Below are positions 16,145-19,077 of a stretch of 64,000 bases of DNA, piece by piece. The notes under the pieces are model-generated. The model was not told where the DNA came from and searched no databases. It saw nothing but the letters and a program-made list of their open reading frames with translations. The DNA lies in NCBI GenBank assembly GCA_030280995.1, contig JASXTE010000011.1, positions 24,887,817 through 24,951,816 of the forward strand. The letters run 5' to 3'. The position numbers and the translations under genes are program-made. This stretch comes from Hemileia vastatrix. Taxonomy: Eukaryota > Basidiomycota > Pucciniomycetes > Pucciniales > Zaghouaniaceae. How positions within the stretch are numbered: position 1 is the first letter of the stretch; every line of letters begins with the position of its first letter.

Positions 16145-16785
16145 ATGTTTAACCTTCTTCCCAAATCTGCCTCTGAAATGGGCTCTTGCCAATACTGCAT
16201 TGACAATAATTTAATCTGCACCATGACACCACCTGTCCATCCATACAGAACATCCTGCGATGTCTGCCAATCCAGAAAGAAGACCTGCCACAGACCTGGT
16301 CCACTTTCTTCCACAACAGATTCACCTCCACCTTAACCTGGTCCTTCTTCTGCCAGCACCAAAAGATCTAGGCCATCCATCCTGATACCCAGATTAATGA
16401 AAAAGCTCCACCCTTCCCAGAAGAGTGCCACAACCCATAAAACAACTAGTTCCCCCATCCCTGGTCCATCTGATGGTAAAGAACATTCTTTTCTTCCTTA
16501 AACTTTAAAACTGATAACTTCTCAGTTCCTCCCTCTTCTGATAGTGATGATAACAATGTAGGATCCATTGCACCACCAACACCAACGCACTTGCTCACTA
16601 TCAAGGCCAAGCTCCAACAACACACATCTCAACAGAAACAACTTCTGCTTCACTACTTCCAATCCACTCCTGCTAGAGATCCACAGGACATTGAGAACAG
16701 AAGACACCTCATTCACCAGTTCAAGGCTAATTCTGAACACTTCATTTCATCTCTTGATTCCCTCTGTAATTCCACTAGTACTTGA
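16145..16785 (+). pseudogene. Antisense gene 1 of gypsy-A: Zn2Cys6-like cysteine-cluster protein
   Basis: This gene runs opposite to pol, just inside the 3' LTR. From Met 16145 the protein has C15-x2-C18-x6-C25-x12-C38-x2-C41-x6-C48 followed by basic and Ser/Pro-rich sequence (SRKKTCHRPGP, TKRSRPSILIPRL). An intron 16476-16525 (GTAAAG...TTCTCAG) joins this to an acidic then helical segment with QQHTSQQKQLLLHYFQST and DIENRRHLIHQFKANSE, ending TGA at 16783. Gypsy-C has the same gene at 59965-60568 with the same intron position, which argues for selection on the protein. One TAA at 16334 breaks exon 1; gypsy-C has CAA there, so it is a C-to-T lesion. The cysteine spacing fits the fungal Zn2Cys6 DNA-binding fold, though the basic residues lie in the second half. 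DNA binding is inferred. Confidence 0.75.
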
Positions 16786-16846
16786 GTTTGATTCAGAAAA
16801 GAAAAATTGACCACACCCTCTATAGGATGTAACCACAAACAACCCT

Positions 16847-17358
16847 CAGTTTTAAGTCTTGGGGGACTCAAAAACCCTCAGTTTAAAGTCTTGGGGGACT
16901 CAAAAACCTAAATCATAAACCCAGAACCAGAGATAAACCACATTAAGACAAAGAGAAAAAACTAACATTCTGGGGTAATTGTAAATAGAGCTGCCAGCCC
17001 ATCAATTACCCCCAAACTTGCCTTTGCTAAATTTGGAGGCTCCCCCTGTGGATACCCTCCACCAATCTTTCAAAACCAACTCCAACAACAAAACCCTTTT
17101 TCCTCAGTATATAGTCTTGGGGGACTTACAACCCTCATTTTAAAGTCTTGGGGGACTAAACCAACAACAATCCTCAGTTTAAAGTCTTGGGGGACTAACA
17201 CAATGTTCAGTTTAAAGTCTTGATGGACTAACTTGATAAAATCTTGAGACCAGCCAGTTTAAAGTCTTGGAGGACTAACAGAAATCAGATTTCAGTTTAA
17301 AGTCTTGATGGACTGATCTTGATACCATAGATTTTTCAGTTTAGAGTCTTGATGGACT
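16847..17358 (+). repeat. Cluster of nine 22-bp motifs between the two antisense genes
   Basis: The motif CAGTTTAAAGTCTTGGGGG-ACT recurs with small changes at about 16847, 16879, 17105, 17136, 17175, 17208, 17255, 17293 and 17337, with irregular spacing and no long shared flanks. Two further copies (CAGTTTAAAGTCATAG...) lie at 19804 and 20068. Gypsy-C carries about nine copies in the inverse orientation between 58590 and 59850. Irregular iteration with a conserved core looks like a protein-binding array rather than a simple tandem repeat. Confidence 0.8.
16972..17012. promoter_or_regulatory. Stem-loop module, copy 1 in gypsy-A
   Basis: GGGGTAATTG at 16972 and CAATTACCCC at 17003 form a perfect 10-bp inverted repeat around a loop containing GAGCTGCCAGCCCAT. 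The same module with its downstream flank recurs at 19897 and 20160, and three times in gypsy-C. Confidence 0.65.
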
Positions 17359-17509
17359 GACAGAATTTTGCATAAAATAGACGCAGCCAATTCCATGCAG
17401 AACACCTCTACAGCCAACCTTCTGAGCTTCCACCTTCACTTAATCATCTACCCATCACTGACAAAAATCTCCTCCTATCCCTTTTCATCATCTTTTCTCA
17501 CCACAGATC

Positions 17510-19077
17510 ATGGCTGGATCTCCTGATGTTAACCCTTCTACTCTCCCTTGCTTCACTGCTCCCAAGGACTATGCCTGCAAACAGTGCATCCAAAAGTGCA
17601 GACCTTGCACATTCACTCTTCCAACTCCTGAAGCCAAATTCTACAACAGGGCTTGTGATTCTTGCTATTCCAAAAAGAAAAGATGTGACAGAGATGCCAA
17701 CTACCCTATTCCTCCGCCTTCTCCTTCTCACAAATACATCTCCAGATCCCCTACCAGATCCCCAGAGCTTGGTCCTTCCTCTTCCTCTCTATCTTCTGCT
17801 CTTCCAGAAGATCCAGAAGCTCAGCTTCCCGCATTCTTCCCAAAAGACCAGCCTTAGCTTCCCAAGAAACTGCTTTTATCTCCGCCAAATTAGCTCCAAA
17901 AGCTTCAAGATCAACTCCCAGGCTTCTAGACCGCGTCCAGGCAGCCCGGCCGACGTTGGGAGGCCCGCCTGCCTCACCAAACAGTGAAAATCAGGGCCAA
18001 AACCTCCAAAAACGGCCAGAAAACAGCCAAATTCATCCAGTCAACAACAACAACTCAACCCAACTACCTCCTACTGCTCCCAGAGCAATGCAATCCACCC
18101 TTCCAAAGTCCAAAAGCACCAAAATTTCCCAGATTTCTAAGAGACCTGCCAGAGAGCCCCAAGAAGAAACCAGAACACCACACACTGCACCCAAACAACA
18201 ACTTTGTCCCCAACTAAGACAAAGAAACTACACCTCTCCTCTGTCAGCCAACTATTCTTCTGAAAGTTCCATTCCTTCAAAAGCTCCATCCAGAAGAGAT
18301 CAATCCGCTTCCAAATCACCCTCTCCTGCTCCATATTATAACAACCCTGGTACTCCATCAGCAGTACCTCATCCAACTGAATCAAACAGAAATATTAACA
18401 ACAGCAACAGCAGACCTGCTGCTCCAACTAGGCCCCAGGAACATCAGTCTCCTATTTCACCTTCTCAAAACCTTTCAGAGGAAGACCAAGAGAATCCATA
18501 TCTTTCCCTGATTGATCCACCTACTATCACCATTCCAAAATCTTCAGAAGTCCAAATCCCGGCCGCTTACAAATTTGATGAGCTTCCAATCTGTAAGTAC
18601 CACATTAATTCATCTAATTTCTTCAACAAAAATAATTACTGATCCAATTCTTCTTGTCTAGTTGGCACCCCTCCTCCTGAATCTATTATTGGAGTTGGCC
18701 AACCTCTTGAAACTTCTTTGACCCTGGATTATGGAGACATGAAGAAACACCTAAGCACCATGTGTTCCAACATGCTAAAAGCCTTTTCCCTCCATGGACC
18801 TTTGAATGACTTTGAAAAATCCCTGAGAAAGCGCCTACTGGACGACCACTGGAAAATGTCTAGGATCATTAAACACACCCTCCAGCACTCCATTCCTGCC
18901 TCTTCTTCTTCCTCCTCTGAACTTCCCTCTAATCCAATTCCTGATCATTACAATCCCTATCATCTCTCCAGCAGGATGCACTTCAAAGAACACAGTTCTA
19001 CCGACAATCCCAACAAAAAACAAAAACGTCATCACAATCTGGACCAGCCTCCAGAAGCTTCATCATCCAGACAATGA
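17510..19077 (+). CDS. Antisense gene 2 of gypsy-A: Zn2Cys6-like N-terminus, Pro/Ser-rich body
   Basis: Also antisense to pol. From Met 17510 the N-terminus has C23-x2-C26-x6-C33-x15-C49-x2-C52-x6-C59, with a basic stretch YSKKKRCDRD at the last cysteines. A second open block (about 17956-18592) is Pro/Ser/Asn-rich and joins by an intron (GTAAGT at 18593, CTAG at 18660) to a final exon 18662-19077 containing GDMKKHLSTMCSNMLKAF and LRKRLLDDHWKMSRIIKHTL, a helical segment, then a basic PNKKQKRHH near the end. The first and second blocks lie in different frames. Either an intron or a lesion near 17860-17955 separates them; a GC-rich piece resembling part of the LTR sits there. A CATAAAATAG element at about 17369 and a CT-rich leader precede the start, as expected of a promoter. 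Function is inferred only. Confidence 0.6.

Follow-up and report, generated by a model that had tools for sequence, protein, structure and literature searches.

A 64,000-nucleotide stretch of the rust fungus Hemileia vastatrix (assembly GCA_030280995.1, contig JASXTE010000011.1, positions 24,887,817 to 24,951,816; hereafter the window) raises the question of what a retrotransposon might do with genes encoded antisense to its own gag and pol. Genes that lie antisense beside the 3′ long terminal repeat (LTR) are long known from plant elements and from a small number of fungal ones. A preliminary description of the window placed two plus-strand genes between the minus-strand integrase and the 3′ LTR of one Ty3/gypsy-type element, here called element A, and both genes were recovered there, with ATG codons at 16145 and 17510 (Table 1). 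We estimate a probability of roughly 55% that the antisense frames of element A, together with those of a second gypsy element (element C), encoded small DNA-binding self-regulators with a predicted intron and six cysteines in Zn2Cys6 spacing, the two halves being apparently swapped. The copies in the window are decayed relics, and no intact copy of genes 1, 2 or 3 was seen there.

Genes 1 and 2 both lie inside the 4.2 kb between the integrase and the 3′ LTR of element A, and the ATG of gene 1 is 49 bp off the inner edge of this LTR. The spacings of 12 and 15 residues between the two cysteine triplets, reported earlier for genes 1 and 2, respectively, were found as described. The two cysteine regions share 37% identity over 46 amino acids (tblastn E 3e-4 within the window), and because of this identity the genes are likely duplicates. 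The one plausible intron proposed for each gene was also found, with predicted lengths of 50 bp in gene 1 and 69 bp in gene 2, a CTGAT branch-like site towards each 3′ end, and reading frames that are open to either side. However, the genes are not intact as they had been presented. In gene 1, a stop codon at 16334-16336 interrupts the frame upstream of the intron, and the cysteine frame of gene 2 ends at 17857, with the remainder (17689-18642) in another frame. The frame preceding the gene 2 intron differs from the cysteine frame, and no plausible intron was seen that would join the two. The second frame of gene 2 includes a stop-free run of 317 amino acids, a length reached in none of 1000 simulations (maximum 300). 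It should be noted that 53 amino acids of this middle frame are 41% identical to the translated LTR of another element, element B (61190-61032, minus strand), so that gene 2 may derive in part from an LTR.

The same arrangement is present in element C, which the preliminary description had missed, as it had the apparently swapped order of the cysteine halves. Element C is flanked at its LTRs by a 5-bp target duplication, CTATG. The ATG of its antisense gene, gene 3, is 108 bp off the inner edge of the 3′ LTR, and a TATAA sequence at 46473 lies 97 bp ahead of this ATG. Gene 3 also has a predicted intron (55 bp, CTGAT near its 3′ end, frames open on both sides), the frame preceding it differs from the cysteine frame, and a frame change at about 46990-47028 marks the decay of this copy. 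Since the pol pieces of elements A and C are only 30% (RNase H, 118 columns) and 27% (integrase, 121 columns) identical, we regard them as different gypsy elements. The cysteine region of gene 3 did not match those of genes 1 and 2 at a threshold of 0.01 (tblastn within the window).

All three genes have six cysteines arranged as C-x2-C-x6-C ... C-x2-C-x6-C. The strict motif occurred three times in the six frames of the window and in none of 100 simulated sequences (first-order Markov, 1-kb blocks). It was held by three of 127 open reading frames (ORFs; stop-to-stop, at least 80 amino acids), and 2000 residue shuffles of this set yielded none; shuffling the residues of the three motif-bearing ORFs 100,000 times each yielded the motif 3, 0 and 1 times. 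All three motifs are antisense and next to the 3′ LTR, in two gypsy elements. Codon usage was scored after training on pieces of the TOR gene in the window, for which held-out pieces gave z-scores of 4.0 and 3.0. Gene 2 scored 6.3 in its middle part, where one minus-strand frame scored higher, and 3.0 in its last exon. The cysteine exons of genes 1, 2 and 3 scored 0.7, 0.2 and 1.8, respectively, and exon 2 of gene 1 scored 1.5. The integrase of element A scored −1.2 on the plus strand and best in its own minus-strand frame.

Element B, a relative of element A in the opposite orientation, carries gene 1 in the same place as element A. In that copy, two stops interrupt exon 1 and cysteine codons have disappeared. 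In this A/B family, gene 1 is thus found in both elements of the window and gene 2 in one of the two. The gapless comparison of exon 1 between A and B gave a synonymous rate (dS) of 0.66, a nonsynonymous rate (dN) of 0.20 and a dN/dS of 0.30, and none of 2000 permutations was as low (permutation mean 0.87). Differences at the three codon positions numbered 24, 13 and 44, each of 110 (chi-square p 0.0001), so that conservation is highest at the second position, as in coding sequence. The other frames gave dN/dS values of 0.98 and 2.05 on the plus strand and 1.13, 0.52 and 2.67 on the minus strand. The antisense frame of gene 1 is therefore the lowest, and among the three frames permuted it alone had no permutation as low, the 0.52 minus-strand frame being matched in 51 of 2000. 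Third codon positions are common to the 0.52 frame and the antisense frame. Read in the 0.52 frame, the differences number 13, 24 and 44, with more of them at the second position than at the first, so that we take this frame to be a shadow of the antisense one. The dN/dS of the cysteine region alone was 0.22, and that of exon 2 was 0.52, which is not significant (123 of 2000 permutations as low). The comparison supports purifying selection on exon 1 of gene 1 in its antisense frame.

The selection test is thin evidence, since it compares one pair of copies, A and B, both partly decayed; the window has no second copy of gene 2 or gene 3 from which dN/dS could be calculated. A 202-amino-acid open frame lies opposite gene 3 on the sense strand of element C (46512-47120, minus strand), and because of this mirrored frame gene 3 is less certain than gene 1. 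Both this frame and the 0.52 mirror frame of gene 1 exon 1 speak for the view that the antisense frames are chance openings in a C-rich, G-poor strand, where a plus-strand GC skew of −0.34 thins stop codons. However, chance openings are a very improbable explanation given the absence of the motif from 100 simulations, the dN/dS of 0.30 and the strong conservation of the second codon position above the other two, and the absence of a 317-amino-acid run from 1000 simulations. For gene 1 the chance explanation is largely refuted; for genes 2 and 3 the refutation is less firm.

The same comparison bears on two other explanations. The antisense RNA, rather than a protein, could be what matters, either by pairing with genomic RNA to enter RNA silencing or by blocking sense transcription. 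Antisense transcripts of LTR elements have been suggested to act in such ways (PMC7264820), and RNA interference pathway genes have been reported in 12 Pucciniomycotina genomes (PMC12210899). However, purifying selection in one frame with an excess of third-position changes would not be expected of a noncoding RNA, nor would the six-cysteine pattern, and we consider this explanation improbable. We likewise give little credence to the idea that the genes are passengers, i.e., host zinc-cluster genes that were captured and are decaying in the elements without a function. All copies seen are broken, as passengers would be, and the introns suggest a genomic origin, but the same site and strand are used in two different gypsy elements and again in A and B, and the A/B pair carries a signature of selection. 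An origin of gene 1 in a private nested insertion was also considered and rejected, as positions 15007-17229 of element A align with 61716-59453 of element B across the LTR edge.

The preliminary description had assigned the cysteine regions to the Zn2Cys6 fold. The repeated C-x2-C-x6-C spacing is that of the Zn_clus family, and this spacing, a likeness to the family profile and a low-confidence fold match support the assignment in part, whereas the scores are below the Pfam cut-off or absent and the halves match in swapped order. In the profile search that had been suggested as a check, the partial matches (18.9 bits, 14.1 bits and no match for the three genes) did not reach the curated cut-off of 21 bits for PF00172. 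Residues 13-30 of gene 1 weakly matched profile positions 18-35, and residues 47-62 of gene 2 weakly matched positions 1-16. The half order of Zn2Cys6 proteins, with the basic triplet first, was not found; GAL4 and LAC9 were matched weakly and in swapped order. All seven Foldseek rows (E up to 10) for the predicted model of gene 1 were Zn2Cys6 proteins, a fold match of low confidence. Judged by these sub-threshold matches, genes 1 and 2 appear to have their cysteine halves exchanged, and the cysteine region, as far as sequence can tell, is not a regular Zn2Cys6 domain. The genes resemble Zn2Cys6 factors such as GAL4, LAC9 and PPR1 in the repeated CX2CX6C, in the basic residues in one half and, for genes 1 and 2, in a Pro-rich stretch after the cluster. 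They differ from these factors in the apparently swapped halves, the Pfam score below the cut-off and the antisense location in a retrotransposon. Pfam scans of pieces from genes 1, 2 and 3, the last as far as its frame change, gave no bZIP match. Protein searches for relatives of the gene 2 cysteine exon, gene 3 and alignment A2 returned 6, 29 and 12 candidates, respectively, none at E up to 1, from a collection that may lack rust or basidiomycete proteins and without a positive control. Three viral-contig scans confirmed no relative of the element A and C pol pieces.

Pairs of CGG/CCG half-sites were counted in the LTRs: the 3′ LTR of element A contains two inverted pairs against 0.14 expected (3 of 300 simulations reach this), the right LTR of element B contains one, and the A 5′ LTR, the B left LTR and both C LTRs contain none. 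No target site of this type was consistent across the six LTRs of A, B and C. The lack of consistent sites fits proteins that are real but serve as nucleic-acid-binding accessory factors, in nuclear import or in the choice of integration site, and a swapped, sub-threshold cluster need not recognise specific DNA. Nuclear and accessory roles, including nuclear import, have also been proposed for plant antisense ORFs in a review (PMC7264820). Nevertheless, the nearest solved relatives by sequence and by fold, although each match is weak, are mostly sequence-specific DNA binders, and we regard a purely accessory function as unlikely.

Self-regulation is, on a slight balance of probability, the most likely use of the antisense genes. 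Transcription of the antisense strand would start at or near the edge of the 3′ LTR, as the ATGs 49 and 108 bp from the LTR edges and the TATAA in element C suggest, and the transcript would be spliced. A retroelement could keep an antisense intron because it would not be recognised in the sense genomic RNA, which would contain the splice signals only as their complement, and the intron could thus outlast retrotransposition. The protein would bind zinc and DNA and would act on the LTR or a flanking promoter, setting the balance between sense and antisense transcription. Such regulation would resemble that by HBZ in human T-cell leukaemia virus type 1 (HTLV-1), through another protein fold.

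The antisense layout is already known. An antisense gene, brtn, was reportedly described in Boty-like elements of Botrytis by Zhao et al. in 2011, to judge from the title. The gene is listed elsewhere as an additional ORF (PMC8365987), and the Boty-like gag-pol has a chromodomain (PMC4227169). Boty-like elements thus resemble the present ones as fungal LTR elements with an additional antisense gene and, as in element C, a chromodomain, but the host is an ascomycete. In plants, antisense ORFs (aORF-3R; Grande gene23, RIRE2, Retand) lie between pol and the 3′ LTR, and the review finds no clear similarity of their products to other proteins (PMC7264820). In Retand, tandem repeats accompany the antisense ORFs in roughly half the cases, some members are non-autonomous, and the TRP28 domain is predicted to bind DNA (PMC11963269); the main text of this paper does not contain the word zinc. 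Elements A and C share with plant aORF-3R an ORF antisense to gag-pol between pol and the 3′ LTR; the tandem repeats at that place in element A, the lack of a recognisable pol in element B and the predicted DNA binding have parallels in Retand. The plant domains are TRP28 and SMC, whereas a cysteine cluster is found here. HBZ is encoded by an antisense gene that is driven by the 3′ LTR and spliced, and it is a nuclear regulator with a shown role (PMC10186651). The position at the 3′ LTR and the splicing (the intron being predicted here) are in common, while HBZ belongs to a retrovirus and has a bZIP fold, in contrast to the cysteine cluster of the predicted proteins here. A study of rust mobilomes (PMC12210899) uses neither the word antisense nor the word zinc in its main text, and no description of a zinc-cluster antisense gene in a retrotransposon was found in the literature searched (titles and beginnings of abstracts, subscription papers being mostly outside it). 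The earlier statement that no named family has this architecture can therefore be kept for the zinc-cluster domain and not for the layout; as far as the literature was searched, the zinc-cluster-like domain would be what is new.

Table 1 Coordinates of retrotransposon and antisense gene features in the window.
Feature	Position	Strand	Remarks
Antisense gene 1	16145-16785	plus	exon 1 16145-16475, predicted intron 16476-16525, exon 2 16526-16785; from ORFs
Gene 1 cysteine region	16187-16288	plus	C-x2-C-x6-C-x12-C-x2-C-x6-C; halves apparently swapped relative to Zn_clus
Antisense gene 2	17510-19077	plus	cysteine frame 17510-17857, second frame 17689-18592, predicted intron 18593-18661, last exon 18662-19077
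Gene 2 cysteine region	17576-17686	plus	C-x2-C-x6-C-x15-C-x2-C-x6-C; resembles gene 1 region
Antisense gene 3	46570-47315	plus	cysteine frame 46570-47028, other frame to predicted intron 47099-47153, last exon from 47154
Gene 3 cysteine region	46651-46752	plus	C-x2-C-x6-C-x12-C-x2-C-x6-C; third strict motif of the window
Decayed gene 1 homologue in element B	59950-60568	minus (antisense to B)	ungapped alignment; exon 1 and 77 exon 2 codons compared
Element A, 3′ LTR	15005-16096	minus (sense strand)	90% identity to 25710-26801 over 1096 columns
Short tandem repeats, unit about 32-33 bp	16836-17365		between genes 1 and 2; Tandem Repeats Finder rows 16836-16908 and 17101-17232; self-BLAST
Element A pol, integrase part	20344-21633	minus	Pfam Integrase_H2C2 4.1e-18, rve 1.1e-8
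Element A pol, reverse transcriptase (RT)/RNase H part	21637-23004	minus	Pfam RT_RNaseH 5e-20, RVT_1 5.1e-5
Element A upstream ORF with aspartyl protease domain	24639-25685	minus	Pfam Asp_protease_2 4.1e-7
Element A, 5′ LTR	25710-26801	minus	partner of LTR 15005-16096
Element C, 3′ LTR	45690-46462	minus	97% identity to 53371-54143
Element C pol pieces (RT, RNase H, integrase, chromodomain)	48468-51326	minus	Pfam RVT_1 3.4e-26, RT_RNaseH 3e-33, rve 6.9e-11, Chromo 3.7e-12
Element C gag	52298-53299	minus	Pfam Retrotrans_gag 7.5e-9
Element C, 5′ LTR	53371-54143	minus	partner of LTR 45690-46462
Element B, relative of element A in opposite orientation	55187-61718	plus	LTRs 82% identical to each other; right LTR 85% identical to A 5′ LTR

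Element A has a purine tract (GGAGGGAGGA) abutting the inner side of its 3′ LTR and a TGG-type primer site after its 5′ LTR. An in-frame stop separates the integrase and RT frames, and because of this stop and the 10% difference between the LTRs we regard the copy as old. Between genes 1 and 2, diverged copies of the tandem repeats reach about 17365. An 887-bp stretch, which consists of part of the element A LTR and 273 bp outside it, is repeated with 96% identity at 14118-15004 and 26188-27074, beside both LTRs, so that the outer flanks are not a simple target duplication. It contains a frame that we take to resemble the start of a copia gag. An integrase fragment with 52-57% protein identity to the element A integrase was seen at 44319-45531 (plus strand), and element C is inserted just downstream of it, at 45690.

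No recognisable pol was found in element B, where none of seven pol pieces of elements A and C matched at 1e-3 (tblastn). Two sense frames of element B (56487-56864 and 57084-57806, plus strand), one gag-like by eye and one acidic, had no Pfam match. Just outside element B, a lone C-x2-C-x6-C half motif (ACNKCFCFYKTCTF) at 61856-61891 (minus strand) looks by eye like the first half of the gene 2 motif; the flank beyond the opposite end of the element showed no second half.

Elsewhere in the window, an apparent TOR kinase gene spans several ORFs at 28404-36338 (plus strand); mTOR and TOR2 were the top solved relatives of the ORF at 30272-32341, and a PI3/PI4 kinase domain was found at 35925-36335. 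Thirteen copies of a 76-bp palindromic repeat (AAGTGTCCAGCAC...GTGCTGGACACTT) lie at 129-1613. The frames at 11425-12898 (minus strand) presumably belong to an SNF2-type helicase (LADDMGLGKT).

A DNA-binding-like domain under purifying selection makes the idea of self-regulation directly testable in antisense genes of this kind, and its recurrence in two gypsy elements suggests a shared strategy. It is possible, and we propose it tentatively, that a circularly permuted zinc-cluster protein was adopted as a self-encoded transcription regulator by more than one fungal gypsy lineage, in each case at this antisense position next to the 3′ LTR. Such a protein would be a fungal equivalent of HBZ, based on the transcription-factor fold that fungi themselves use, in a domain arrangement that family models miss. 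If the half-swapped cluster is real, it would be a variant of the main fungal transcription-factor fold, and because current models score it below their cut-off, similar genes may pass unannotated.
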